Virus record (IMG/VR): IMGVR_UViG_3300035703_001628
Location: 1 to 29,113 of that record
From: a virus
Reading direction: 5' to 3' (one strand)
Length of the DNA stretch: 29,113 nucleotides
Part shown: positions 327 through 28,973 of the stretch, in pieces
Layout: each line of letters starts with the position of its first letter
How positions within the stretch are numbered: position 1 is the stretch's first letter
Position numbers and translations under genes: made by a program
Notes under the pieces: model-generated
Databases searched by the model: none
What the model saw: only the letters and a program-made list of their open reading frames with translations
Told to the model about the DNA's origin: nothing

Positions 327-996
327 TAATCTAGAGCAACAAGTTCAGGCTAGATTAGATGGCTCGGTAGTTAATACCGAGCCATTTCCTTTTCTATATG
401 TTGAGAATATCTTTCCTAGAGATTACTATAAAAGAGTAGATTCAATCTTTCCAACCAAAGACCAGATGAGCGTTATTGATGGTAAAGAATACAAAGTGCT
501 GGAGTTACCGTTAAAGGAAAGAATGACCTTAACTATATTCAATAGAGGAACACTACACTCAGAGTTGAATAACTATCCTCACAAAGAAAACTGTATACAA
601 ATGAGGAAGTGGTTTGTTACCTTTCTTGTGCCCAAAGTTGCTGCCAAGTTAGGTATTGATTTACCTAAGGTGTGGGATGATGATACAAGATTTGTAGTAG
701 ATCTTCCTGGTTATCTTAAAAGACCACATACCGATATTCCCCAGAAAATATTCTCTATTCTAATATACATGTCAGAGAGTAAAAGTGGTACTACTATACT
801 TAAACCCAAGCAGCAAGGGTTTAGTGATGACTATGGATATGACCATCAGTTTGACCAATTTGAAGAAGTATTTGACCCTCCATTTAGACCAAATTGTCTG
901 ATAGCATTCCCAAGAACAGACACATCATTTCACTGCGTAAAGAAGATTGGTCAAGGGGAATATCGCAGGGCAATTCACATTAATATACGACGTTGA
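319..996 (+). CDS. 2OG-Fe(II) oxygenase-like protein
   Basis: This 225-residue protein has the pattern of a double-stranded beta-helix 2-oxoglutarate/Fe(II) dioxygenase. HxD is at H137/D139 (PHTD), the distal iron-binding His at H205 (SFHCV), and an Arg suited to bind 2-oxoglutarate at R216 or R217 (YRRAIHI). Such enzymes hydroxylate proteins, nucleobases or small molecules and are common in T4-like phages, where substrates are rarely known. It starts inside the AhpD gene, so the two are probably co-translated. The substrate cannot be told from the sequence. The N-terminal 100 residues show no motif I recognise. Confidence 0.75.
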   Translation: MANNLEQQVQARLDGSVVNTEPFPFLYVENIFPRDYYKRVDSIFPTKDQMSVIDGKEYKVLELPLKERMTLTIFNRGTLHSELNNYPHKENCIQMRKWFVTFLVPKVAAKLGIDLPKVWDDDTRFVVDLPGYLKRPHTDIPQKIFSILIYMSESKSGTTILKPKQQGFSDDYGYDHQFDQFEEVFDPPFRPNCLIAFPRTDTSFHCVKKIGQGEYRRAIHINIRR

Positions 997-1021
997 CTTG
1001 ACCATTTGAATCCTGTATAAT
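993..1021 (+). promoter_or_regulatory. sigma70-type promoter for ORF54 and tmRNA
   Basis: TTGACT (993-998), a 17-nt spacer and TATAAT (1016-1021) differ from the bacterial consensus by one base. The -35 overlaps the stop codon of the oxygenase gene. Immediately downstream is GATAAATA (1022-1029), one base off the T4 late octamer, so early and late initiation could both occur here. The next genes are the 54-residue ORF and the tmRNA. Confidence 0.75.
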
Positions 1022-1218: not shown

Positions 1219-1485
1219 GGTTAATGGTAGTAAACTGACGATTAAAGGTGTCTTGGACGCGAGTTCGATTCTCGCCAACTCCACCACTACGGGGTTGACA
1301 GGCTTCGACAGGGCAAGTAATAACCCGACAGCTACCAGTGAGGCGACTGACTTAATCAGCGCAAAAAAAGTAAACGCAAACGACGATTACTACGAAATGG
1401 CTCTAGCTGCTTAATAGCAGTATAGGTTCCAGAGTTAACCGCTTGGTAACAGAAAGGTTAGAGGCGGCAGCGTAAGCTGTCCGCC
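1219..1485 (+). ncRNA. ssrA: tmRNA, circularly permuted two-piece type
   Basis: The acceptor half comes first: T-arm GCGAG-TTCGATT-CTCGC (1259-1275), acceptor 3' strand CAACTCC (1276-1282) and ACCA (1283-1286). Only four bases later the coding half starts with GGGGTTG (1291-1297), which pairs with CAACTCC and gives the G3-U70 wobble recognised by alanyl-tRNA synthetase. The resume codon GCA is at 1376; the encoded tag is ANDDYYEMALAA, ending TAA at 1412 in the loop of the CTGCT/AGCAG hairpin. A pseudoknot-like AACC/GGTT follows. This permuted order is known from Alphaproteobacteria. It should release stalled ribosomes and tag proteins for degradation. The 5' limit of the acceptor piece is uncertain. 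Confidence 0.93.
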
Positions 1486-1490
1486 TTTTT
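1463..1490 (+). terminator. Rho-independent terminator of the tmRNA unit
   Basis: GGCGG-CAGC (1463-1471) pairs with GCTG-CCGCC (1476-1485), with one bulged T and a GTAA loop, followed by five T. It ends the ORF54-tmRNA transcript and probably forms the last helix of the precursor. Confidence 0.85.
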
Positions 1491-1519
1491 CTTCCGACTG
1501 CAATAATGGAGGTAACAAC

Positions 1520-2146
1520 ATGAATGCAGTAGAAACATTACATCGTATTGAAGCGTATTTTGATAAGAACCATAACTTGTTTATCAGGTTTGGGGGACTA
1601 TTTGCACTACTGTTTTTTACACTGTTTGTACCGTATTCAATATACTTCAAAACATTGGAAAAGGTAGAAGTGCAACAGAAGGCTAACTATCTATTGTTAG
1701 CTGAACTTAGCGATATGGATAACCGTATGGAGTTCCTTGAGCTTTCTTATGAGAGGAAGCAAAAGGTAATGAGAGAGGTTGAATGTCTTGCTAAGAACAT
1801 TTACTTCGAGGCAGGTGGTGAACCATATAGTGGTAAGCTTGCTGTAGCCCAAGTAACAATGAACCGTGTTAAGGATACAGATTATCCTCGTTCAGTGTGT
1901 GGTGTTGTTTACCAAAAGTCAAGGGGTACTTGTCAGTTCTCTTGGGTTTGTGAAGGTAAGTCTAAACCTCGTAACAATGAAACGTGGAGAGAATCCCTTC
2001 GCATTGCCGAGAACATCTTGATTAACAAGAGAAACTATAATGTTGTTGGTCAAGCAAAGTTCTTCCATGCTACCTATGTTGACCCAGCGTGGTCAGACAC
2101 CAAGCGAGTTGTTAAGAAGATCGGTAACCACATCTTCTATCACTAG
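1520..2146 (+). CDS. membrane-anchored SleB-type cell-wall hydrolase
   Basis: This 208-residue protein has one hydrophobic segment (about 24-43), a charged linker or short coiled coil (45-85), then a SleB-type Hydrolase_2 domain (about 88-208). The family hallmark is LAKNIYFEAGGEP with the probable catalytic Glu at 97, followed by a CQFSWVC stretch and FFHATYVDPAWS near the C-terminus. Such enzymes cleave peptidoglycan glycan strands. The N-terminal anchor would place the domain in the periplasm, fitting a signal-anchor endolysin or an infection-time wall enzyme. GGAGG lies just before the ATG. No holin is recognisable beside it. Confidence 0.8.
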   Translation: MNAVETLHRIEAYFDKNHNLFIRFGGLFALLFFTLFVPYSIYFKTLEKVEVQQKANYLLLAELSDMDNRMEFLELSYERKQKVMREVECLAKNIYFEAGGEPYSGKLAVAQVTMNRVKDTDYPRSVCGVVYQKSRGTCQFSWVCEGKSKPRNNETWRESLRIAENILINKRNYNVVGQAKFFHATYVDPAWSDTKRVVKKIGNHIFYH

Positions 2147-2167
2147 TTGTCTTTCTAATGATGTGAT

Positions 2168-2184
2168 GGGATAGTATCCCTACT
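2168..2184 (+). terminator. possible weak terminator hairpin
   Basis: GGGAT-AGT-ATCCC (2168-2180) is followed by TACTTTT, between the hydrolase and the next gene. The stem is only 5 bp, so it may attenuate rather than end transcription. Confidence 0.35.
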
Positions 2185-2202
2185 TTTGCAATGAGGTGAC
2201 TT

Positions 2203-2394
2203 ATGTCTAATGGTGATTTTGAAGTATTGCCGCGAGGCACGATTGCTGAGCTTCAAGAGCTCAGGCAATTTGCTAACCAAATGATTTCTTACAATTCAAT
2301 CCATGATATGCCAACGCCACATGAGATGCGTGAGCTTATTAATAAGCTGCAACTGTGGTATGCCGGTCATAACGAGAAGTATCCGCAATCCTGA
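2203..2394 (+). CDS. small hypothetical phage protein (63 aa)
   Basis: ATG at 2203 follows GAGGTG. The product is acidic to neutral and mostly helical (IAELQELRQFANQMI, then MRELINKLQLWY), with no Cys, signal or membrane segment. I do not recognise it. Its stop is one base from the ATG of the following gene, so the pair is co-translated. Confidence 0.65.
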   Translation: MSNGDFEVLPRGTIAELQELRQFANQMISYNSIHDMPTPHEMRELINKLQLWYAGHNEKYPQS

Positions 2395-2395
2395 T

Positions 2396-2854
2396 ATGAA
2401 AACTAATCCTTATCGTGAGCATATTACAGTTAACGGTATCAAATACATGTTAACATTAGTTGGTAGTCAAAAACAATATGAGGTTGTAAATGACAAGCTT
2501 GCTACAGTTGCAAGAGGTTGTTACATTGTTATATTCAACAAAGCTATGCAGTATCATGGAAAGTTTTCGGAAGGGTTTGACCGTAGATGGTACAATCGTA
2601 TGAAGAGAAGCAATACAAAAGTGTATAGACACGATAAGGCACAAGCTTTTCTTGATCAATCCAATAACTCACAGTTTGCAGTATATGTTTGTAGTGAAAG
2701 AATGCTTGTTGAGAAACTTAAAAGCAAGTTTGGCAAGCTTGCTAATATGTTTAACAATGCATGGTTAGAGGAATACACTCTCCGGAAAATTGACTTTCCA
2801 TTCAACAAAGCGAATAACAACAAAGTGTTATCTAAGAGATTGAGAAATGATTAA
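2396..2854 (+). CDS. hypothetical basic protein (152 aa)
   Basis: I place the start at ATG 2396 (MKTNPYREH), one base after the previous stop. The longer open frame runs back through the upstream gene and carries no independent start signal. The product is rich in Lys, Arg and Asn with aromatic residues spread through it and no clear motif, suggesting nucleic-acid or protein contacts rather than catalysis. Family unknown. Its 3' end overlaps the PurA-like gene by 8 nt. Confidence 0.7.
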   Translation: MKTNPYREHITVNGIKYMLTLVGSQKQYEVVNDKLATVARGCYIVIFNKAMQYHGKFSEGFDRRWYNRMKRSNTKVYRHDKAQAFLDQSNNSQFAVYVCSERMLVEKLKSKFGKLANMFNNAWLEEYTLRKIDFPFNKANNNKVLSKRLRND

Positions 2855-3839
2855 TTATTGTGATGCCGTAGTAGACCTCCAGTCAGGTGATACTGGGAAA
2901 GGTAAGGTTACTCATTCTTTACTAAGTAGTGGAGAGTACGACCTAGTTCTCCGATATAATGGTGGCTCGAATGCTGGACATACTATCTACCACAATGGTA
3001 AGAAAATTGTCACACATCAAGTGCCAGCTGGAGTTCTCTACGGCATCCGCTCTCTTATTGGTGTCGGGTGTGTTGTTAATATAGAGAAGTTGTTAGATGA
3101 GATTCAGATGCTTGAATCTAATGGTATCGATACTACAGGTCTGATCTATGTTGACAAGAGATCACATATCGTTTTGCAAGACCATGTTGATGAAGATAAT
3201 AAAGACACAGCAATCGGTACTACAAAGCAAGGTATAGGCCCAGCGTATAGGTGCAAGTATGGTAGAACTGGTGTCCGCATTGGCGACACTCTTTGGCGCA
3301 ACAGTAATCGTTTTACTGTTGTTGATAGTATTAGCCTTTTTGATGGCGCTCGTATTCTTGCTGAGGGTGCTCAGGGTTTTGCTCTCGATATTGACTGGGG
3401 GGATTATCCTTATGTTACTAGTTCTCATTGCACTGTGGGTTCTGTTTGCCTGAATGGTGTATCACCAAGAAAGATCAGAAAGATCTATGGAGTTGCCAAG
3501 GCATATGAAACTTATGTTGGCACCAAAGAGTTTGGTATGCATTGTGATGATCTCAAAAAGGTTCAGGAACTAGGACAAGAGTTTGGAGCTACAACTGGCC
3601 GTCCAAGAAAGTGTAATTGGGTAAATGTTGATAGTCTTGCATATGCAGCAAAGGTTAATGATATCACACATCTTGTTGTTAACAAGATTGATATTCTCGA
3701 TCAGGTTGGCAAGTATGTTTACTACAAAGACGGTAATGAGTATGATGCTGGTAGTAGACTTGGGCTGATTGGTGTAATTGTCGAAGCACTGTCTGATAAT
3801 GTTAAAGTTATTTTCTCGGATACGCCACACACAATATAA
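2847..3839 (+). CDS. compact adenylosuccinate synthetase (PurA/PurZ family)
   Basis: This 330-residue protein shows the PurA signatures in order. The phosphate loop is SGDTGKGK with the general-base Asp at 15. GGSNAGHT carries the catalytic His at 45. Then come AIGTTKQGIGPAY, EGAQGFALDIDWGDYPYVTSS, FGATTGRPRK and NKIDILD. PurA joins IMP and aspartate using GTP. The protein is about 100 residues shorter than E. coli PurA, missing much of the middle and most of the C-terminal domain, as in archaeal PurA and phage PurZ. PurZ makes the 2-aminoadenine precursor from dGMP. The retained Asp15 favours IMP-type chemistry, but I cannot settle PurA versus PurZ. Confidence 0.85.
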   Translation: MINYCDAVVDLQSGDTGKGKVTHSLLSSGEYDLVLRYNGGSNAGHTIYHNGKKIVTHQVPAGVLYGIRSLIGVGCVVNIEKLLDEIQMLESNGIDTTGLIYVDKRSHIVLQDHVDEDNKDTAIGTTKQGIGPAYRCKYGRTGVRIGDTLWRNSNRFTVVDSISLFDGARILAEGAQGFALDIDWGDYPYVTSSHCTVGSVCLNGVSPRKIRKIYGVAKAYETYVGTKEFGMHCDDLKKVQELGQEFGATTGRPRKCNWVNVDSLAYAAKVNDITHLVVNKIDILDQVGKYVYYKDGNEYDAGSRLGLIGVIVEALSDNVKVIFSDTPHTI

Positions 3840-3842
3840 ATA
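3835..3842 (+). promoter_or_regulatory. T4-type late promoter TATAAATA
   Basis: An exact match to the T4 late octamer spans the stop of the PurA-like gene, about 24 nt before the ATG of the envelope protein. Initiation here would give a short leader containing GGAGGTG. A gp33-like co-activator is encoded at 19856-20092. Confidence 0.55.
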
Positions 3843-3866
3843 TTTGTATAGCCCTTGGAGGTGTAT

Positions 3867-4268
3867 ATGAAAGCGTTACTACTATTAGGTCTTTTAGTTT
3901 TAGCACCAACAGCTCAAGCCCAGCAAGAAGAAAAGCTTCTTGGCGCAGTTGCAGGTGGATATCTTGGATCTACAATAGGTGGAGGAGATGGTAAGACAGT
4001 AGCAACAGTACTTGGAGCAATCATTGGTTATAATGTTGGTCCACAAGTATTAGGAAACAGCCAAGCATACACCTATAATGATCACAAATATTGGAGACAG
4101 CCTAGTTATAGACAAGCAGATGTATATAAGTTGTGTGACAGAGAGAACCCTTATCATAAGGATTCAAGACTCTACTGGTCATACAATAGGGGATGTGTAC
4201 AGCGTCTAAGCGAAGAAATCAGGCAGTTGGAGCGACAAGCATATGAACAAGGTTACCAAGGACACTAA
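3867..4268 (+). CDS. secreted glycine-zipper protein
   Basis: Start ATG 3867 follows GGAGGTG; the in-frame TTG at 3855 overlaps that ribosome site and is rejected. The 133-residue product begins with a signal peptide (MKALLLLGLLVLAPTAQAQ). A glycine-zipper hairpin (LLGAVAGGYLGSTIGGGDGKTVATV) typical of outer-membrane Rick_17kDa or 2TM proteins follows. The C-terminal half is Tyr/Arg-rich with two Cys. No lipobox Cys follows the signal. It is probably exported and acts at the host envelope, perhaps in lysis or superinfection control. Function unproven. Confidence 0.7.
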   Translation: MKALLLLGLLVLAPTAQAQQEEKLLGAVAGGYLGSTIGGGDGKTVATVLGAIIGYNVGPQVLGNSQAYTYNDHKYWRQPSYRQADVYKLCDRENPYHKDSRLYWSYNRGCVQRLSEEIRQLERQAYEQGYQGH

Positions 4269-20092: not shown

Positions 20093-20637
20093 AGATCACT
20101 TGTACAACTAAGTTGCCACCAAAGCTTCGCAAGCATGTAGTTGCTTTAACGAAGTTTACAGTTGATACTATCTTCACTAAAGCTCAGAAGAAGAAGCTTG
20201 AGCTAATTAGTATTAGAATTGATAAGACATTGAATGATAGTTCAATCCACAATGTCGATGCTGTTCCATTAGCATACATGGATGCTTTTATCGAAGACTA
20301 TGATGAGAGCCAGAAACCAAGACATTTCGTTATTTGGATCAATCCATTCTTCACTAAGAAGAATCTATCTAAGCAAACTAAGACAACGTTTGCCGAAACA
20401 ATCGTTCATGAGATTGTTCATATTAGACAAGCACTTACTGGCCAGATGAAGCAGATCGTCAAGAACGGTAACATGATGATCAAGTTTCATAAGAAGTACT
20501 ATAAGCTTGATTCGAATGACAACTACTGGTTGTTTCCATGGGAAGTTGAAGCTCGTGGATATGAGAAAGGTGTACTCAATCTCTATTGTATCAAGAATAA
20601 ATGCTTTCAAGAGTTTCCTGAACAACCACTGAAGTAA
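20089..20637 (+). CDS. second SprT-like zinc metallopeptidase
   Basis: ATGA overlap with the gp33-like gene. The 182-residue product has HEIVH (H107, E108, H111) and FPWEVEARGYEKG as a third-ligand block, the same arrangement as the 18467 protein. Overall identity outside the motifs looks low, so this is an old duplication or separate gain. It lies directly after gp33 and before the carbamoyltransferase set. Confidence 0.75.
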   Translation: MKITCTTKLPPKLRKHVVALTKFTVDTIFTKAQKKKLELISIRIDKTLNDSSIHNVDAVPLAYMDAFIEDYDESQKPRHFVIWINPFFTKKNLSKQTKTTFAETIVHEIVHIRQALTGQMKQIVKNGNMMIKFHKKYYKLDSNDNYWLFPWEVEARGYEKGVLNLYCIKNKCFQEFPEQPLK

Positions 20638-21635
20638 TGTTCACTCTTGGTATCAATCTATCACACCACTCATCAATAGCACTTCTTAAAGACAATGAAG
20701 TGCTTTTGTTTATACATGAAGAGAGATTAAATAGAGACAAGTACCATAGAGGTTTACCATATAGGTCTCTTGATCTAATTAAAAATTATACTAACAACAT
20801 TGATAGTGTAATCCAAGTTAGTGGTTCTACTGACAATCTTAAAGCAATAGTTAAGTACCTAGCTGACCAAAACGTTGATATTACTACCTTTAGGAATGAC
20901 GGTAGTCTTCACCATATGTCACATGCAGCTGCTGGATTCTTCATGTCGCACTTCGATACTGCTACTGTAGTAGTTATTGATGGTGCTGGAGCATTGTATA
21001 GGCTCAACAAATCTAATGTCAGAATATCAGAAACCACATCACTATATGATGCCAGGTTTCCTCAAATCGTATGTACTGATAAACATTTCGTCATAGGTCT
21101 TTACGATAAGAAGCCTTTAGTATATACGGATGATGACAAGAAAGCATTTAGAGCTAAATTCAAGAATTCAAGAGTTAGTATAACAGAAGCGCTCGATATT
21201 GGGTGGAAGTATGCCGAGGTAACATCCAGCATTGGGTTTGGTACATTCGGTGAAGGTAAGACGATGGGCCTTTCTGCTTACGGCCATAAACCTACAACAG
21301 ATCAAAATGTCAACAAAGCCTATAACATTCAAAAGGAACTTGAGGCAGTGTTTGTCCATCTAGCTAGTAAAATTAAAACAGACAATGTTGTGCTAAGTGG
21401 TGGCTGTGCTCTAAACATTCTTGGCAATTCCTTAATTAAGAAGACATACTCCAACCTCAATGTATTTGTTGATCCAATAGCAGCTGATGGCACAGTTGCA
21501 TTAGGAGCAGCAGCATATGAGTACTACTCTAAGACCAAGGATATAAATAAATTAGTATTTGGTTTATACCAAGGTCCGCAGTACCAGCTTGAGAAAAATT
21601 ACATATATGAATGTGCAAGAAAATATTCAGTATAA
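20637..21635 (+). CDS. carbamoyltransferase N-terminal (Kae1-like) half
   Basis: The 332-residue product matches the first domain of NodU/CmcH/TobZ O-carbamoyltransferases: MFTLGINLSHHSSIALL, the metal ligands H92 and H96 (LHHMSHAAAG), D115 (VVIDGAG), GEGKTMGLSAYG, LSGGCALNILGN and PIAADGTVALGAA. This domain moves carbamoyl from carbamoyl-adenylate to the acceptor. The frame ends just after the GPQY linker, where a full-length enzyme would continue. The C-terminal half follows in the +1 frame. A one-base change near 21625-21640 would join them. Confidence 0.85.
   Translation: MFTLGINLSHHSSIALLKDNEVLLFIHEERLNRDKYHRGLPYRSLDLIKNYTNNIDSVIQVSGSTDNLKAIVKYLADQNVDITTFRNDGSLHHMSHAAAGFFMSHFDTATVVVIDGAGALYRLNKSNVRISETTSLYDARFPQIVCTDKHFVIGLYDKKPLVYTDDDKKAFRAKFKNSRVSITEALDIGWKYAEVTSSIGFGTFGEGKTMGLSAYGHKPTTDQNVNKAYNIQKELEAVFVHLASKIKTDNVVLSGGCALNILGNSLIKKTYSNLNVFVDPIAADGTVALGAAAYEYYSKTKDINKLVFGLYQGPQYQLEKNYIYECARKYSV
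21542..21549 (+). promoter_or_regulatory. TATAAATA octamer before the carbamoyltransferase C half
   Basis: An exact late octamer lies inside the N-half gene, 58 nt before the ATG at 21607. If used it would let the C-terminal half be transcribed on its own. Confidence 0.35.
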
Positions 21636-22164
21636 GGATGTTGCTAGTTTACTGAATGAAAGAAAGCTGGTAGCAATCTTTCAAGGTAGATCAGAAAGTG
21701 GTCCAAGAGCATTAGGCAACAGATCAATGCTCTACACTCCTACAGATCCAAACGGTAGAGACCATGTCAATAAGATTAAAGGTAGAGAGTACTTTAGGCC
21801 ACTAGCTGCGTCAATGATGCTAGAGTATGCGAATGATTGGTTCGATATGCTTGGCATTCCTGAATCGCCTTATATGACTTTCTCCTTCACTTGTAAAGAA
21901 GATAAGAAGCATATCATCCCGTCTGTAATCCATGTTGATGGATCTTGTAGAATTCAAACTGTTACAGAGCAGCAAAACTTCCACTACTATAATCTAATCA
22001 AGGCATTCTATCAATTGACTGGCGTGCCAATGGTTCTTAATACATCGTTGAATCTGGCAGGTGAACCACTTGTAGAAACTATTGACGATACATTTAACAC
22101 ATTTACAAAGTCTAAAATAGACCATCTCTACCTACCTGAGTTAGAGTTGCTTGTTTCCAAATGA
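21607..22164 (+). CDS. carbamoyltransferase C-terminal (YrdC-like) half
   Basis: Start taken at ATG 21607 (MNVQENIQYKDVASLL), inside the end of the N half; no strong ribosome site is seen. The 185-residue product holds the complete second domain: FQGRSESGPRALGNRSML, KGREYFRPLAASMM, HVDGSCRIQTV, TGVPMVLNTSLNLAGEP and LDHLYLPE-like end (here IDHLYLPELEL). In TobZ this YrdC-like domain makes carbamoyl-adenylate. It could be a separate subunit or the product of frameshifting from the N half. Its stop overlaps the next start. Confidence 0.82.
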   Translation: MNVQENIQYKDVASLLNERKLVAIFQGRSESGPRALGNRSMLYTPTDPNGRDHVNKIKGREYFRPLAASMMLEYANDWFDMLGIPESPYMTFSFTCKEDKKHIIPSVIHVDGSCRIQTVTEQQNFHYYNLIKAFYQLTGVPMVLNTSLNLAGEPLVETIDDTFNTFTKSKIDHLYLPELELLVSK

Positions 22165-23366
22165 GCTACTATACACTAGCAATATCATCATCCAACCATG
22201 ATTCATCTATTTGTCTTCTTAAAGACAGTGAGATAGTTGTTGCCTTTTCCTGTGAAAGAACTAATAAGATGAAACACACTCAAAGGGTGGAGCAGTGTGA
22301 TATTGATGTAATTGCAAAATATACTAGGACTGTTGATAAGTTGGTCCTTATCAATGTCAACGCGAAGTATGAAAAGTATCCAATGTTTAATGCTTTTGAG
22401 GTATCAGAAACAGTAGAGAGCTTACTAAAGAAAGTAAGGAAAGCTGGAATACAATGTAAAAGGACAGTTGTTGATAATGCCCTACATCATCTTTATCATG
22501 CCGCCGCCGGATACTACACTTCTGGCCTTGATGATGCAATCTGTATTATTATTGATGGCTTTGGTTCAACAGAGCAGCATGAAGATGCTTCATTTGCAGA
22601 AACAACTTCTATCTTCTATGCTAAAGATACCTTTGAGACTCTCCACAAACAAATTTTATATAAGTTCGAGTCACCAAAAAGGACAGGATGGGATAACAAA
22701 AAGCTATCCGATAAGAAGAAGTCCTATAGGTTTCCTGTTACACTCACGACACATCTTGATATTGGTAAGATGTATGGTACAATAACTAGACACATTGGAT
22801 TTTATACTGTCGATGCTGGTAAGACGATGGGTCTATCGGCTTATGGAAAACCAAATAACCTACCATCTATGCTAGTTGATGATACAATCATATCAAATAG
22901 CAATTTGTTCAGATATGATAGTTACATTGATGTTCAATGCTATCCTGAATTAGATAGCCCTGATGACCAAACTAAGAAGAACTTAGCATACAATGTTCAG
23001 AAGGCTCTCGAAAAGATATTTGTAGAAAGAGTTGCATCTGCACTGAAAATCAAGTATAGTAATAATGTAATACTTGGTGGTGGTTGTGCTCTTAACATCT
23101 TAGGAAACTCAGAGGTCAAGAAACACTTTCCTAACACTAATGTGTATCCTGAGCCAATTGCAGCTGATGCTGCTCAATCGATTGGCGCTGCGTTATATCA
23201 TTACAAGTTGGAATTTCCTAATACAAAGTTTAAGAAAATAGATAATGTATACTTTGGTCCTCATTATGAACTTTCGACTGTCAAGCAAAGTCTTCTACAA
23301 CTAGTGGAGCAATACAACAATGAGTCTGGTCTACAGGTCAGTGGTAGCCAACAACAAGGTGGCTGA
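22161..23366 (+). CDS. second carbamoyltransferase N-terminal half, no C half
   Basis: This 401-residue protein is another Kae1-like domain: LAISSSNHDSSICLL, H109 and H113 (LHHLYHAAAG), D132 (IIIDGFGS), GKTMGLSAYG, LGGGCALNILGN and PIAADAAQSIGAA. All metal ligands are kept. It ends 36 residues after GPHY with a polar tail (SGLQVSGSQQQGG), and no YrdC-like domain follows in any frame. It may share the C half at 21607, or act as a decoy or regulatory paralog. It overlaps the C-half gene by 4 nt. Confidence 0.85.
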   Translation: MSYYTLAISSSNHDSSICLLKDSEIVVAFSCERTNKMKHTQRVEQCDIDVIAKYTRTVDKLVLINVNAKYEKYPMFNAFEVSETVESLLKKVRKAGIQCKRTVVDNALHHLYHAAAGYYTSGLDDAICIIIDGFGSTEQHEDASFAETTSIFYAKDTFETLHKQILYKFESPKRTGWDNKKLSDKKKSYRFPVTLTTHLDIGKMYGTITRHIGFYTVDAGKTMGLSAYGKPNNLPSMLVDDTIISNSNLFRYDSYIDVQCYPELDSPDDQTKKNLAYNVQKALEKIFVERVASALKIKYSNNVILGGGCALNILGNSEVKKHFPNTNVYPEPIAADAAQSIGAALYHYKLEFPNTKFKKIDNVYFGPHYELSTVKQSLLQLVEQYNNESGLQVSGSQQQGG

Positions 23367-24867: not shown

Positions 24868-24942
24868 GGACCCATCGTCTAACGGTTAGGACATTACCCT
24901 TTCACGGTAAGAATAGGGATTCGAATTCCCTTGGGTTCACCA
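24868..24942 (+). tRNA. tRNA-Glu (anticodon TTC)
   Basis: Acceptor GGACCCA/TGGGTTC with encoded ACCA; anticodon arm TTACC-CTTTCAC-GGTAA; T-loop TTCGAAT. First tRNA of the cluster. Confidence 0.93.
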
Positions 24943-24947
24943 TTTAT

Positions 24948-25075
24948 GTGCGTTTCGTCTAAACAACGGACAGGACAGAGGGCCACATAAGTCTACAGTG
25001 GAAACACAACACTGAAAAGTGCGGTAGCGGTGGAATAACCTCAAAATGCGGGTTCGAATCCCGTAACGCACACCA
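24948..25075 (+). ncRNA. 128-nt tRNA-like RNA with expanded anticodon domain
   Basis: The ends are fully tRNA-like: acceptor GTGCGTT (24948-24954) with AACGCAC (25065-25071) and ACCA, D-arm TCGTCT...CGG...AGGACA, T-arm GCGGG-TTCGAAT-CCCGT. Where a 17-nt anticodon arm should be there are about 70 nt closed by GAGG/CCTC and holding hairpins CCAC/GTGG and CACT-GAAA-AGTG. No 7-nt anticodon loop with T33 is visible. It may be an intron-bearing tRNA or a tRNA mimic that uses tRNA processing. Isotype not assignable. Confidence 0.6.
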
Positions 25076-25081
25076 TATTAC

Positions 25082-25157
25082 GGACCGTTAGCTCAGCTGG
25101 TAGAGCATTTGACTCTTAATCAACAGGTCGTAGGTTCGATCCCTACACGGTCCACCA
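25082..25157 (+). tRNA. tRNA-Lys (anticodon CTT)
   Basis: Acceptor GGACCGT/ACGGTCC plus ACCA; anticodon arm TTTGA-CTCTTAA-TCAAC; canonical GG D-loop and TTCGATC T-loop. Confidence 0.95.
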
Positions 25158-25160
25158 TTT

Positions 25161-25234
25161 GCCGGATTGGTATAACGGAATTACAGCGGTCTCCAAAACC
25201 GTTAACGGGGGTTCGACTCCCTCATCCGGTGCCA
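25161..25234 (+). tRNA. tRNA-Trp (anticodon CCA)
   Basis: Acceptor GCCGGAT/ATCCGGT (G1-U72 wobble) plus GCCA; anticodon arm GCGGT-CTCCAAA-ACCGT. Confidence 0.95.
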
Positions 25235-25247
25235 GCATAGTTATTAT

Positions 25248-25322
25248 TGGCGAGTAGATCAGTGGTAGATCAGTTGACTGTTAATCAACCTGTCGTAGGT
25301 TCGATCCCTACCTCGCCAGCCA
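25248..25322 (+). tRNA. tRNA-Asn (anticodon GTT)
   Basis: Acceptor TGGCGAG/CTCGCCA plus GCCA; anticodon arm GTTGA-CTGTTAA-TCAAC. Confidence 0.95.
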
Positions 25323-25484
25323 TCTTGGTGTCCTGCAGATGCATCTGACGGGTACACACTATCAGTGTTGAGGCTTTTCCGTTACGGGAACACTGATTGA
25401 TATATGAGGTAGAACGGAATGCATTCTATGTTGCGTGGGGGCATAGATAAGAACCAACCTTAAATGGTAGCCCACGCCTTATTT
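25323..25484 (+). ncRNA. structured spacer RNA between tRNA-Asn and tRNA-Ala
   Basis: No ORF. Strong helices: palindrome CAGATGCATCTG inside a GTGT/ACAC hairpin near 25328-25356; ATCAGTGTT/AACACTGAT (25361-25369, 25389-25397) with an inner CCG-TTA-CGG; and GCGTGGG/CCCACGC (25433-25439, 25471-25477). It ends in the TTATTT spacer that also separates the tRNAs, as if processed as its own unit. Identity unknown. Confidence 0.5.
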
Positions 25485-25558
25485 GGGGACGTAAGCTAAC
25501 GGGAAACTGACGCCCTTGCACGGCGTACTTGTGGGTTCGATTCCCACCGTCTCCACCA
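25485..25558 (+). tRNA. tRNA-Ala (anticodon TGC)
   Basis: Acceptor GGGGACG/CGTCTCC with the G3-U70 pair expected for alanine, plus ACCA; anticodon arm ACGCC-CTTGCAC-GGCGT. Confidence 0.95.
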
Positions 25559-25564
25559 TTTTAT

Positions 25565-25721
25565 GAAGAGTCCGAAAGCGAGGTGAATAACCACCAACCT
25601 GGCTGTCGAGGGTGTGTCGCTCTACAACAATTATCGATTCCCTTTGGGGAATGCTGTGGTAGCATGATATGTGTGTAGAGAGCGTTCTGCTCTTAAACGG
25701 ATATGACAGCACTCTTCACCA
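25565..25721 (+). ncRNA. 157-nt structured RNA with tRNA-like ends
   Basis: GAAGAGT (25565-25571) pairs with ACTCTTC (25711-25717), followed by ACCA as in a tRNA. Inside are GCTGTC/GACAGC (25602-25607, 25705-25710, abutting the closing stem), CGCTCTACA/TGTAGAGAGCG (25618-25626, 25674-25684), ATTCCC/GGGAAT (25637-25652) and a TGCT/AGCA hairpin. It has no TTCGA loop. The motif GGTGAATAACC also occurs, nearly the same, in the tRNA-like RNA at 24948. Function unknown. Confidence 0.55.
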
Positions 25722-25991
25722 AACGTGCCATCTAATCAATGGCTAGTCTACCCAGACGATGAGAAACGGTGTGATGTCCGTAGGGTGGTTCCAGTCTAAC
25801 CGAACTGGCGCTGGCAATGCGAAAATCCTCTCTGGTCGGGATGCGGATACCACATTGCGTTAAGTGTTTGTGGTGGGATGACAAAAACCGCCGCAGAGAG
25901 GAAGCAACCTATTTTTGGTGCCTAGAATAGAATCGCGAAAGGATAGTCTAGGTTAAATGCCAACCCTAAGTGGGCGCAGCCGTCTTATTTT
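25722..25991 (+). ncRNA. structured RNA of unknown identity before tRNA-Gln
   Basis: There is no supported ORF in these 270 bases. Helices: CCAGT/ACTGG near 25790-25807; perfect CCTCTCTG/CAGAGAGG (25827-25834, 25894-25901) enclosing ACCACA/TGTGGT (25849-25854, 25869-25874); and CCTAGA/TCTAGG near 25921-25954. GCAATG (25814-25819) can pair with CATTGC (25853-25858) in the inner hairpin, making a pseudoknot. Two TATTTTT spacers suggest separate processed pieces. Not recognised as any tRNA. Confidence 0.5.
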
Positions 25992-26065
25992 TGAGGAGTC
26001 GTCTAACGGCAGGACAGCAGGTTTTGATCCTGCTTATCGTGGTTCGAATCCATGCTCCTCAGCCA
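25992..26065 (+). tRNA. tRNA-Gln (anticodon TTG)
   Basis: Acceptor TGAGGAG/CTCCTCA plus GCCA; anticodon arm GCAGG-TTTTGAT-CCTGC. Confidence 0.94.
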
Positions 26066-26071
26066 AAATTT

Positions 26072-26158
26072 GGACAGGTTGGAGAGCGGTTAAATCCAAT
26101 TGACTGTAAATCAATCACCCTACGGGTTACGCTAGTTCGAATCTAGCCCTGTCCACCA
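26072..26158 (+). tRNA. tRNA-Tyr (anticodon GTA)
   Basis: Acceptor GGACAGG/CCTGTCC plus ACCA; anticodon arm ATTGA-CTGTAAA-TCAAT; long variable arm CACCCTACGGGTTAC as expected for class II. Confidence 0.95.
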
Positions 26159-26163
26159 CACTT

Positions 26164-26239
26164 GGGACAATAGCTCAGTTGGTAGAGCAAAGTGTTGATA
26201 ACGCTTAGGTCCATGGTTCAAGCCCATGTTGTCCCACCA
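26164..26239 (+). tRNA. tRNA-Ile (anticodon GAT)
   Basis: Acceptor GGGACAA/TTGTCCC plus ACCA; anticodon arm AAGTG-TTGATAA-CGCTT. Confidence 0.94.
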
Positions 26240-26244
26240 TCTTT

Positions 26245-26275
26245 GGCTCGGTAGTTCAGTTAATGACTGTAACCT
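26245..26275 (+). pseudogene. truncated tRNA 5' fragment
   Basis: GGCTCGGTAGTTCAGTT has the form of a tRNA acceptor strand and D-arm, spaced from tRNA-Ile like the other cluster members, but no CCGAGCC partner, anticodon arm or T-arm follows. The HNH endonuclease gene begins 50 nt later, so it may be the remnant of a tRNA broken when that gene arrived. Confidence 0.5.
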
Positions 26276-26302
26276 AATAAAATCCTGTGACATTCAGAAT
26301 CT

Positions 26303-26310
26303 TATAAATA
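26303..26310 (+). promoter_or_regulatory. TATAAATA late promoter of the HNH gene
   Basis: Exact octamer within CTTATAAATAAG (26301-26312), the same 12-mer as at 28078. It lies 16 nt before the HNH ATG, with GGAGG between them. Confidence 0.45.
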
Positions 26311-26326
26311 AGATTGGAGGTGTCAT

Positions 26327-26740
26327 ATGGAAACAAAAACATGTTCAAATTGCAAGCAAACAAAACCCATAACCTTTTTTAGCAAATATAAAAGATCTAA
26401 GGATGGGTATGATTATCGTTGCAAAGAGTGTAGCAAGCAGTCAAATAAAGCCTGGTGCGACAACAATTGGGATAAAAAAATGTCCCAGCAACGTGATAGA
26501 ACTAAATTGCTTGTGGAACAGGTAAGGAATTATAAACAATCATTCGGTTGTAAATTCTGTGACGAAAATGAGCCAGTATGCTTAGAGCTGCATCACTTAG
26601 ATCCTACTGCTAAAGAAATTAACCCCTCCGATATGGCAGGTAGGGGCTGGAGTTGGGAAAGGATGCAAAGAGAACTCAGTAAATGTATTGTATTATGTTC
26701 TAACTGTCATAAAAAAGTACATGCTGGTCTGTTAGTATAG
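26327..26740 (+). CDS. HNH endonuclease (probable homing nuclease)
   Basis: The 137-residue protein starts METKTCSNCKQTKPITFF, a CxxC zinc ribbon (C6, C9) completed by C32/C35. It ends in a zinc-stabilised HNH nuclease: CKFC (C75, C78), LELHHLDP (H89, H90), then CIVLCSNCHKKVH (C124, C127, H128, H132). Such free-standing HNH genes in tRNA clusters are usually mobile. GGAGG precedes the ATG. The stop codon TAG (26738-26740) lies inside tRNA-Asp, so the last five codons double as the tRNA 5' end. Confidence 0.85.
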   Translation: METKTCSNCKQTKPITFFSKYKRSKDGYDYRCKECSKQSNKAWCDNNWDKKMSQQRDRTKLLVEQVRNYKQSFGCKFCDENEPVCLELHHLDPTAKEINPSDMAGRGWSWERMQRELSKCIVLCSNCHKKVHAGLLV

Positions 26741-26800
26741 TGGTAAGTACGCGAGCCTGTCACGCTTGCAGCACGAGTTCAATTCTCGTACAGACCGCCA
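26726..26800 (+). tRNA. tRNA-Asp (anticodon GTC)
   Basis: Acceptor GGTCTGT/ACAGACC plus GCCA; anticodon arm CGAGC-CTGTCAC-GCTTG. Its first 15 bases are also the end of the HNH reading frame. Confidence 0.95.
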
Positions 26801-26805
26801 TATTT

Positions 26806-26881
26806 GGGATCATAACTCAATGGCTAGAGTAACTGGCTTTTAACCAGTAAGTTCTGGGTTCGAGTCCCAGTGATCCTACCA
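26806..26881 (+). tRNA. tRNA-Lys (anticodon TTT)
   Basis: Acceptor GGGATCA/TGATCCT plus ACCA; anticodon arm ACTGG-CTTTTAA-CCAGT. Confidence 0.95.
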
Positions 26882-26890
26882 TTTGGTCAC

Positions 26891-26934
26891 TTCAGTAAAA
26901 AGTATACGCGAGTATATAATACTCATTTTACTGA
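26891..26934 (+). promoter_or_regulatory. long inverted repeat around a TATAAT
   Basis: TTCAGTAAAA (26891-26900) and TTTTACTGAA (26925-26934) are exact reverse complements, and AGTAT/ATACT extend the stem. TATAAT (26915-26920) is in the loop. No good -35 is seen. It could be an operator, an attenuator or an mRNA hairpin for the DUF2061 gene. Confidence 0.45.
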
Positions 26935-26977
26935 ATCAAGTCACAATGAATTTACAATAAAATAATGGAATTTACAA

Positions 26978-27382
26978 ATGGACACATACAACAGAACATT
27001 TGCTAAGACAGCAACGTATAGAATAGTAACATTTGTTCTTACGTTTGTCTTAACGTACTTAATTACTGGTGATGCCTTTCCATCTGCAACGATTGCAATT
27101 CTCTCGTTGACAGTTGGTGCCCTATCGTTTATGATACACGAACGTCTTTGGACTAGGGTCAAGTGGGGCAACCTAGGTGGCTTTGACCGTAAGGTTAGAT
27201 CTGTTGTTAAGACAATTACATATAGACTATGGTCTTTGTTCATTGTGTTTGTCCTTGGATTATTTTTTGGACTTGGCGCTTCAGAAGCGTTGTCTGTTAC
27301 AGTCGTATTGAATATAATGTACCTACTTTCGCACTACGTCAATGAACGAGTGTGGAATAGAATTAAGTGGGGAAAGAATTAA
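26978..27382 (+). CDS. tandem DUF2061 membrane protein
   Basis: The 134-residue protein consists of two copies of the DUF2061 unit (about 1-66 and 68-134). Each has KT-x-TYR at the start, two membrane segments and an E-R-x-W-x-R-x-KWG end (HERLWTRVKWG and NERVWNRIKWG). Four membrane passes in the inner membrane are expected. The family occurs in bacteria and phages with no established function. No clear ribosome site. The stop is 2 nt before tRNA-Pro, so RNase P would cut right behind it. Confidence 0.82.
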   Translation: MDTYNRTFAKTATYRIVTFVLTFVLTYLITGDAFPSATIAILSLTVGALSFMIHERLWTRVKWGNLGGFDRKVRSVVKTITYRLWSLFIVFVLGLFFGLGASEALSVTVVLNIMYLLSHYVNERVWNRIKWGKN

Positions 27383-27384
27383 TT

Positions 27385-27461
27385 CGGATATTAGCTCAGT
27401 CTGGTAGAGCACCTGCTTTGGGAGCAGGGGGTCGCAAGTTCGAGTCTTGCATGTCCGACCA
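27385..27461 (+). tRNA. tRNA-Pro (anticodon TGG)
   Basis: Acceptor CGGATAT/ATGTCCG plus ACCA; anticodon arm CCTGC-TTTGGGA-GCAGG. Confidence 0.94.
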
Positions 27462-27467
27462 ATTTTC

Positions 27468-27552
27468 GCGACTGTGGTGGAATCGGTATACACAACAGAC
27501 TTAAAATCTGTCGGCGTTAGCCATGTCGGTTCAAGTCCGACCAGTCGCACCA
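27468..27552 (+). tRNA. tRNA-Leu (anticodon TAA)
   Basis: Acceptor GCGACTG/CAGTCGC plus ACCA; anticodon arm ACAGA-CTTAAAA-TCTGT; long variable arm CGGCGTTAGCCAT. Confidence 0.95.
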
Positions 27553-27557
27553 GTTTT

Positions 27558-27634
27558 GGCCTCGTAGCTCAGTGGATTAGAGCAACAGCCTTCTAAGCTG
27601 TGGGTCGCAGGTTCGAGTCCTGCCGGGGTCGCCA
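27558..27634 (+). tRNA. tRNA-Arg (anticodon TCT)
   Basis: Acceptor GGCCTCG/CGGGGTC plus GCCA; anticodon arm ACAGC-CTTCTAA-GCTGT. It reads AGA/AGG, the main arginine codons of many phage genes here. Confidence 0.95.
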
Positions 27635-27640
27635 ATTGAC

Positions 27641-27648
27641 TATAAATA
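27641..27648 (+). promoter_or_regulatory. TATAAATA late promoter
   Basis: Exact octamer 22 nt before the ATG at 27670, with TTGGAG in the leader. Confidence 0.5.
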
Positions 27649-27669
27649 CTCTAAACACTTGGAGTATCT

Positions 27670-27960
27670 ATGAAGAAGTTTAAAGAAGTTATTGCCGGCA
27701 CCAACTGCTTAAACTGTAGCTGGGCCAACTTTAAGAACGTCGTAGCTGTTAGACCAGAGGAGCTTAACGCTCAAGGTGGTCTTAACATTGCTAAAGAGGA
27801 TATGGCAAAAGCTAAGCATAGTGACTTAGTTACATTGCCAGGCAAGGCTTCTGTGGTTAATAAGTTTTGGTGTGAACACGAAGATGTCACACAATACGTT
27901 ACTGAAAGAATGTGCTGTAAGTATTGGGATGCTGAGGGCACGAAAAGAGATTGGAAGTAG
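27670..27960 (+). CDS. Cys-containing hypothetical protein (96 aa)
   Basis: TTGGAG precedes the ATG. Five Cys and one His are arranged as CLNC, WCEH and CC near the C-terminus, which could bind a metal or an Fe-S cluster. Otherwise polar, with no membrane segment. I do not recognise the family. A sigma70-like promoter for tRNA-Thr begins directly after the stop. Confidence 0.65.
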   Translation: MKKFKEVIAGTNCLNCSWANFKNVVAVRPEELNAQGGLNIAKEDMAKAKHSDLVTLPGKASVVNKFWCEHEDVTQYVTERMCCKYWDAEGTKRDWK

Positions 27961-27989
27961 TTGACTTCCTAAGTAGGTACACGTATAGT
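27961..27989 (+). promoter_or_regulatory. sigma70-like promoter of tRNA-Thr
   Basis: TTGACT (27961-27966), 17-nt spacer, TATAGT (27984-27989). The tRNA starts at 28000, so the transcript begins only a few bases before it. Confidence 0.75.
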
Positions 27990-27999
27990 ACTCAATATT

Positions 28000-28075
28000 G
28001 CCCTTGTAGCTCAGCTGGTAGAGCGCCTGATTTGTAATCAGGATGTCGGCGGTTCGACTCCGTCCGGGGGCACCA
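28000..28075 (+). tRNA. tRNA-Thr (anticodon TGT)
   Basis: Acceptor GCCCTTG/CGGGGGC plus ACCA; anticodon arm CCTGA-TTTGTAA-TCAGG. Confidence 0.95.
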
Positions 28076-28205
28076 GTCTTATAAATAAGTTTTACCCGCC
28101 CTACCTTTCGGTGTAAGGTTTGTCGCATAGCGATGGGTTTTTCGTAAATAGGAATCTAGTACATAGTGCGCACTGTGTGACGATAGATGAACCGAATCTT
28201 TCTAT
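28076..28205 (+). other. structured spacer with TATAAATA, no gene seen
   Basis: It begins with CTTATAAATAAG (28078-28089), identical to 26301-26312. Then come a TCGC-ATA-GCGA hairpin followed by GGGTTTTT, possibly a terminator, and the near-palindrome CATAGTGCGCACTGTG around 28163-28176. No ORF supported. Confidence 0.4.
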
Positions 28206-28280
28206 TGCGGGGTAGAGAAGTAGCAACTCGTCAGCCTCATAAGCTGAAGACCGGTGGTGCAAATCCATCCCCCGCTACCA
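28206..28280 (+). tRNA. initiator-type tRNA-Met (anticodon CAT)
   Basis: TGCGGGG pairs with CCCCGCT except at the first pair (T1 opposite T72), the unpaired 1-72 feature of formyl-methionine initiators. A11-T24 in the D-stem also fits. Anticodon arm TCAGC-CTCATAA-GCTGA. The T-loop is TGCAAAT, with G instead of U at 55, and the D-loop lacks GG. Confidence 0.85.
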
Positions 28281-28288
28281 ATTAAATT

Positions 28289-28561
28289 ATGACACTAGAT
28301 CAATTCAATAGTATGTTCCCCCTTATAGCTAGTTCTGCTGTGATGCTGAACATCTATAAGGTATATAAAGACAAGGTAGTAAGAGGCATCCATTGGGCTA
28401 GCCCTCTGATCAACTATACTGGTCAGATATCAGGAACATATCTTCTATACTCATTAGGTCAATACTATTCGGCGATGGCTGGAGTGTGGTACACTTGCCT
28501 CTCGATCACATGGTATTGTATGATGATTTACTATAACTTCTATAAGAAGATGCCCAGTTAG
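28289..28561 (+). CDS. small multi-pass membrane protein (90 aa)
   Basis: The product has about three hydrophobic segments (FPLIASSAVMLNIY; INYTGQISGTYLLYSLG; AGVWYTCLSITWYCMMIYY) and is rich in Tyr. The loose layout recalls PQ-loop/SemiSWEET halves, but no PQ motif is present and I do not assign it. The ATG is 9 nt after the CCA of initiator tRNA-Met with no ribosome site. Its stop TAG (28559-28561) lies inside tRNA-Val. Confidence 0.6.
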   Translation: MTLDQFNSMFPLIASSAVMLNIYKVYKDKVVRGIHWASPLINYTGQISGTYLLYSLGQYYSAMAGVWYTCLSITWYCMMIYYNFYKKMPS

Positions 28562-28626
28562 TTCAGCGGTAGAACTCTGTCTTTACACGGCAGCTGTCGG
28601 CGGTTCGATCCCGTCACTGGGTACCA
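28552..28626 (+). tRNA. tRNA-Val (anticodon TAC)
   Basis: Acceptor GCCCAGT/ACTGGGT plus ACCA; anticodon arm CTGTC-TTTACAC-GGCAG. Its first ten bases overlap the end of the preceding reading frame. Confidence 0.95.
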
Positions 28627-28727
28627 ATTCATAGCCTCGTACTGTTCAGGCAAGTGGGGCAAAGGCCGGTGGACTCGCGGCGCCAAGCATGAAAAAGGCC
28701 TTGGCCAACATGAGTCCTTCTTTTACT
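28627..28727 (+). ncRNA. structured spacer RNA between tRNA-Val and tRNA-Ser
   Basis: GGACTC/GAGTCC encloses GCCAAG/CTTGGC, with a T-rich tail (TTCTTTT), and a GCCT/AGGC hairpin lies upstream. It could be a terminator with a long stem or a small folded RNA. No ORF. Confidence 0.4.
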
Positions 28728-28815
28728 GGAAGGTTGCTAGAGAGGCCTATTAGCGCTCTTTGCTAAAGAGATGGATGTAACAGTCACGTAGGTTCGAATC
28801 CTACACCTTCCGCCA
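28728..28815 (+). tRNA. tRNA-Ser (anticodon GCT)
   Basis: Acceptor GGAAGGT/ACCTTCC plus GCCA; anticodon loop TTGCTAA between CTCT and AGAG; class II length (88 nt). Confidence 0.92.
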
Positions 28816-28817
28816 AT

Positions 28818-28893
28818 AGCAACGTAGCATAGTGGCCAATGCACCTCCTTCATACGGAGTTTATCGTCAGTTCGAGTCTGACCGTTGCTACCA
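28818..28893 (+). tRNA. tRNA with CAT anticodon (elongator Met or Ile2)
   Basis: Acceptor AGCAACG/CGTTGCT plus ACCA; anticodon arm CCTCC-TTCATAC-GGAGT. Pairing at 1-72 rules out an initiator. Met versus lysidine-modified Ile2 cannot be decided by eye. Confidence 0.88.
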
Positions 28894-28898
28894 TATTT

Positions 28899-28973
28899 GT
28901 TGCGGTGGCAGAAAAGTTATGCAAGAGTCTGCAAAACTCTTTTATGCTGGTGCGAGTCCAGTCCGCAACTCCA
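28899..28973 (+). tRNA. tRNA-Cys (anticodon GCA), altered elbow
   Basis: Acceptor GTTGCGG/CCGCAAC plus TCCA; anticodon arm AGAGT-CTGCAAA-ACTCT. T-loop TGCGAGT (G55) and a D-loop without GG (GAAAAGTTA). Confidence 0.9.

Follow-up and report, generated by a model that had tools for sequence, protein, structure and literature searches.

The DNA analysed here (the window), a virus record of 29,113 bases, comes from a T4-like phage; its tmRNA gene, at positions 1219–1490, is a circularly permuted ssrA. The encoded tmRNA is probably working. Comparison of the gene with its relatives makes it likely that this is a functional, phage-inherited two-piece tmRNA of betaproteobacterial structural type. 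Two-piece tmRNAs of phages are a published kind, exemplified by Melnitz and Mosig; we did not find a beta-type phage group, or repeated shortening of the spacer between the halves, described in the open-licence literature.

Layout and predicted transcription of the permuted gene

The Rfam family of permuted tmRNAs (RF04321 tmRNA_permuted) matches the gene at full length (positions 1–213; 136.8 bits, E 4.8e-27, cut-off 47). ARAGORN likewise calls a permuted tmRNA, with a tag frame that begins at an alanine resume codon, encodes ANDDYYEMALAA and ends at a stop, two stops following the tag. Read directly from the sequence, the acceptor half ends in GCCAACTCCACCA with 1286 as its last base, CTAC follows at 1287–1290, and the coding half begins at 1291 with GGGGTTG. 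All seven base pairs of the acceptor stem form across this joint, between GGGGTTG (1291–1297) and CAACTCC (1276–1282), and the third pair is G-U, as in the identity signal for alanine. The preliminary description of this DNA had proposed an acceptor-first order, a full acceptor stem with a G3-U70 signal and a phage location, all of which are borne out. Energy folding of this RNA by itself recovers the T stem, the connector helix and the acceptor stem, with a loop of 8 nt closed by the last (z −2.19). A weak second match to RF04321 at 25531–25660 (23 bits) overlaps tRNA-Ala (25485–25558) and was read as that tRNA, not as a second tmRNA.

Table 1. Features of the presumed tmRNA transcription unit, in window coordinates
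Feature	Position	Strand	Evidence or remark
Sigma-70-type promoter, TTGACT-17-TATAAT	993–1021	+	11/12 consensus positions; best in first 3 kb
54-aa ORF, T4-like small protein	1054–1218 (codons 1054–1215, stop 1216–1218)	+	phrog_38428, E 2.2e-11
Acceptor piece (first half) of permuted tmRNA, mature 5′ end approximate	1219–1286	+	RF04321 from 1226, sequence; CCA ends at 1286
Connector helix strand GGTAGT	1226–1231	+	RF04321 pairs; partner strand GCTACC at ~1331–1336
T arm GCGAG-TTCGATT-CTCGC	1259–1275	+	Compensatory changes in 3/5 pairs
Acceptor stem 3′ strand CAACTCC	1276–1282	+	Pairs with 1291–1297; followed by ACCA (1283–1286)
Intervening segment CTAC, predicted to be removed	1287–1290	+	Sequence
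Coding (mRNA-like) piece, starting with acceptor 5′ strand GGGGTTG that carries G3-U70	1291–1490	+	RF01850 to 1486
Tag reading frame ANDDYYEMALAA and stops TAA TAG	1376–1417 (tag codons 1376–1411)	+	ARAGORN
3′ hairpin and T run, terminator or last tmRNA hairpin	1461–1490	+	Sequence; last stem of RF01850

The near-consensus promoter noted earlier ahead of the tmRNA is there, but it stands ahead of the 54-aa ORF, so that the presumed transcript would carry the tmRNA as its second gene. A terminator-like hairpin closes the unit at ~1485–1490. The promoter is kept in six related viral contigs (L003–L008, with two spacer changes in L008), and its 30-bp core has exact matches in six viral contigs apart from the window. 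Compared with L003, the segment 992–1286 is 93.9% identical, against flanks of ~79%, and the 54-aa protein shows 100% amino-acid identity. In cyanophages, S-SM2 among them, relatives of this T4-like protein are encoded between gp43 and uvsX; here it lies under its own strong promoter ahead of the tmRNA. Early expression of the unit is plausible. Immediately upstream, the segment 323–991, from the gene at 39–326 up to the promoter, is present in the window and in L326 and absent from L003, in which 322 abuts 992, indicating a variable insertion site.

Selection on the joined halves and descent of the gene

The six contigs L003–L008 were retrieved through the neighbouring 54-aa protein (93–100% identity) and not through the RNA, and all six carry the tmRNA. 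Their acceptor stems read GGGGAAG/CTTCTCC and GGGGATG/CATCTCC, where the window has GGGGTTG/CAACTCC. In the helices that join the halves, 6 of 18 pairs are changed on both sides across seven phage sequences, including some retrieved through the 54-aa protein, while 100% of cells remain paired, a level of covariation and pairing reached by none of 500 shuffles. Compensatory changes occur in all three helices tested (acceptor, T and connector) with every pair kept; that in the connector helix is a single A-U to U-A change, in L182. Compensatory change with pairing retained across related phages indicates selection for the joining of the two halves.

Free stem positions behave in the same way when 62 viral sequences are compared. 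A search pattern fixing GGGG/CTCC supplied most of these 62, so the constancy of G3-U70 among them is partly built in, which is not so for L003–L008. An initial pattern for viral sequences, CTCCACCA-N-GGGGNTG, lacked specificity and matched mostly by chance. When halves were swapped and co-folded, pairing energy failed to distinguish the true partner, which made this comparison uninformative. The gene is also kept in a syntenic relative at ~80% DNA identity.

Permuted ssrA had been taken in the preliminary description as an alphaproteobacterial trait, with a search against the Rfam alpha_tmRNA model as the check. That model (RF01849) does match above its cut-off (65.6 bits against 50), but the best of the three clade models is RF01850 beta_tmRNA, at 130.2 bits (E 9.4e-40, cut-off 84); the cyanobacterial model, at 48.8 bits, falls under its own cut-off. 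The T arm, GAGTTCGATTCTC, has an ordinary GTTCGA-type T loop, in contrast to GGGGCGGTACCC in the alpha-like bacterial genes sampled, and the nearest bacterial genes found are betaproteobacterial, so the alphaproteobacterial link is not supported. An Accumulibacter tmRNA reaches 231.8 bits under the beta model, compared with 130.2 for the phage gene, which is therefore beta-like but diverged.

When 84,980 genomes of bacteria and archaea were scanned for short spacers, permuted tmRNAs with 3–5-nt spacers were found in betaproteobacteria, mostly Accumulibacter together with other Rhodocyclales, several of which, Accumulibacter included, share the CTAC spacer. The closest bacterial genes found belong to these same groups. 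One Accumulibacter genome is 80% identical to the phage tmRNA across 133 nt; among 250 genomes of its order, only three others matched, each over ~32–35 nt.

Trees were built from the two tRNA-like halves with the spacer left out, and their 'alpha' genes were recognised by the T arm. The closest companions of the window gene are five further phage sequences (95/97), with L143 and L157 joining them at the next fork (93/97), and all of their tags end in MALAA. Rather than nesting among betaproteobacterial ssrA genes, it groups with phages; betaproteobacterial genes are the nearest bacterial ones by distance, through joining forks that are weak. This phage-only group with its MALAA-ending tags makes the gene look phage-inherited rather than freshly captured, and the earlier suggestion that the phage took it from its host is not supported for any recent event. 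Phage inheritance is thus well supported at the tip of the sequence tree. Deeper forks rest on few columns and long branches and are weak; model scores, T loop and tree speak against an alpha-like ultimate donor. No DNA match to a recorded phage was found among 50,697 records, in a sensitive search with 1000–1600 or a megablast search with 1–25000.

The LAA end of the tag, reported earlier as a ClpXP-type ALAA end, is present in the ARAGORN tag and is kept within the phage group, while tags differ among phages. ClpXP-type proteases read the LAA end of tags in known systems. The YYEM centre had been called unusual: no frame matching ANDDYYEMA occurs in the bacterial genome collection, but the description is a relative one, since sister phages carry ANDDVYNMALAA, ANDSNYEMALAA and ANDSNYDMALAA, with variable middles. 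Two sets of odd tags came to light elsewhere. L287, a Pseudogulbenkiania metagenome-assembled genome, has a permuted tmRNA, possibly on a prophage, with a 5-nt spacer (TCGAC) and a tag, ANFDIYDVQHVA, that lacks the LAA end. Four viral permuted tmRNA calls (L133, L169, L210 and L230) have the tag GKADEWIFMGSVGG without the usual AA end; the frame was miscalled there, or the tag is an unusual one.

Among known systems, the betaproteobacterial two-piece tmRNA (RF01850, for example in Accumulibacter) has its fold, T loop and 4-nt CTAC spacer in common with the phage gene and differs in its tag, ANDERFALAA as against ANDDYYEMALAA. The alphaproteobacterial form (RF01849, Caulobacter) is alike in permuted order and two-piece logic, but has ANDN... 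tags, another T loop and spacers mostly of 23–47 nt in the genes sampled. The ssrA genes of mycobacteriophages Bxz1 and Wildcat and of Bacillus phage G are one-piece. These are also phage-borne, in other phage and host lineages (PMC4131195). Methylophilales phage Melnitz and Pelagibacter phage Mosig are large aquatic phages that, like the phage here, carry tRNAs and a permuted tmRNA, behind a presumed early promoter (PMC9004378). The Melnitz gene is of alpha-like type and has a glutamine riboswitch associated with it, whereas the gene here is of beta type and stands behind the 54-aa ORF and a sigma-70-like promoter; Rfam models found no glutamine riboswitch in the window. A survey of 18,146 genomes gave 133 unique tmRNA structures of phages, of which 53 were two-piece, nearly all in marine or aquatic phages (PMC9004378), and a curated database lists 79 unique phage tmRNA sequences of all forms (PMC11915505). 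The present gene shows that T4-like phages have their own lineage of beta-type two-piece tmRNAs, and that this lineage has its own tags.

Spacer, processing and proposed working

Spacer length varies widely among close relatives. Sister tmRNAs of the window's phage group have spacers of 4, 5, 15, 44 and 62 nt; in a second phage group, with the tag ANDNVAFALAA, spacers of 3, 5 and 67 nt separate almost identical halves; and other phages span 3–67 nt. Among viruses the tree calls for nine or more switches between short (≤10 nt) and long spacers, a figure limited by the weakness of its forks. The spacer ends in TAY in 12 of 13 distinct short examples compared with 4 of 44 long ones, a pattern noticed after the fact among related spacer sequences; long spacers are often hairpins ending in TGAY. 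Phage tmRNAs thus appear repeatedly to have swapped a hairpin spacer for one of 3–10 nt that nearly always ends in UAY, a mildly new observation. It is conceivable, though rather unlikely, that this reflects a second, minimal processing mode, in which the hairpin spacer is repeatedly lost to 3–10 nt, UAY before G1 serves as the cut signal and the 8-nt loop is opened by a distinct nuclease step; such a step would perhaps be provided or favoured in phage infection. Natural genes that are near-identical and differ mainly in the spacer (3/5/67 and 4/5/44/62 nt) offer material on how short joints are cut, which work on permuted tRNAs likewise leaves unanswered (PMC3978253). Algae and archaea have circularly permuted tRNA genes that also place the 3′ half before the 5′ half and lose a 1–74-nt spacer at the acceptor loop, but their halves are re-ligated, whereas the tmRNA remains in two pieces (PMC3978253).

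In the working that we propose, one transcript would carry the 54-aa ORF and the tmRNA. With a 4-nt spacer, the CCA end is predicted to sit in an 8-nt hairpin loop and would need a cut to be freed. Host RNase P would cut before G1291 and a 3′-end nuclease would act, releasing two pieces that stay paired; permuted tmRNA precursors are known to be cut by tRNA-processing enzymes and to work as pieces held by pairing (PMC11915505, PMC3985003), and the two-piece tmRNA of Caulobacter works in trans-translation (reviewed in PMC3985003). Host AlaRS would charge the tmRNA, and host SmpB, with host EF-Tu also taking part, would bring it to stalled ribosomes. We found no smpB in the window or in 11 related viral records, which are fragments, so the phage tmRNA would depend on the SmpB of its host. 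Addition of ANDDYYEMALAA would mark the incomplete protein for degradation by a ClpXP-type protease and free the ribosome. The likely benefit would be that translation keeps going in a dying cell while cut or truncated mRNAs accumulate.

Other accounts of the gene fare less well. The phage RNA might instead be an inhibitor or decoy that binds SmpB or ribosomes and blocks host trans-translation, as has been proposed for mycobacteriophage DS6A, which carries only a tag-less, tRNA-like part, such a molecule being a strong inhibitor of tmRNA (PMC4131195). A decoy would need neither the full tag frame with its stops and LAA end nor the downstream hairpins, all of which are kept, and we regard this account as very improbable. 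Somewhat less remote, yet still improbable, is that the phage's own tmRNA mainly changes the fate of tagged proteins, through escape from a host adaptor or recycling of host proteins, rather than adding rescue capacity. The tag core ANDDYYEMA, foreign to the bacterial genome collection, and the tag middle that shifts between sister phages would fit this, and selective tagging of host proteins has been proposed for Melnitz (PMC9004378). The two ends of the tag, AND... and ...ALAA, are nevertheless kept. In known systems these ends guide the adaptor and ClpX.

That the phage recently took its ssrA from an alphaproteobacterial host is largely refuted and now scarcely credible: an alpha-model score above cut-off (65.6 bits) and the alpha-like ssrA of the published phage Melnitz (PMC9004378) speak for it, but the beta score is double, the T loop is non-alpha and the tree places the gene among phages, away from the alphas. 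That the gene is a dead passenger copy, or that its spacer was deleted by an assembly error, could be entertained from the 44–62-nt spacers of sister phages; with all stems intact, and with 3–5-nt spacers, several of them CTAC, recurring in independent phages and many Rhodocyclales genomes, we consider this the remotest of chances. A functional two-piece tmRNA inherited among phages remains the reading that we favour.

Other features of the window

The window also encodes PhoH, dCMP deaminase, exonucleases and a protein with a T4 RNase H C-terminal domain and a matching 5′–3′ exonuclease domain; the syntenic relative has a primase and NrdA/NrdB in addition. A cluster of 19 tRNA genes at 24868–28973 is interrupted by an HNH endonuclease gene (26327–26740) and contains a COG2908 RNA motif at 28094–28138 (Rfam RF02939, 70.7 bits, cut-off 58.7). 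The product of 2847–3839 resembles adenylosuccinate synthetase (PF00709; phrog_1211, labelled 2-aminooxy adenylosuccinate synthetase), is ~40% identical to its nearest counterparts in recorded phages and is possibly PurZ-like, as in phages with 2-aminoadenine DNA. Finally, N- and C-terminal domains of a carbamoyltransferase lie in separate frames at 20637–22164 and 22161–23366, and after them comes another N-domain protein. A relative, L323, has ORFs that match in size and order (1497–3015 and 3012–4187), and the split is therefore probably stable rather than an error.
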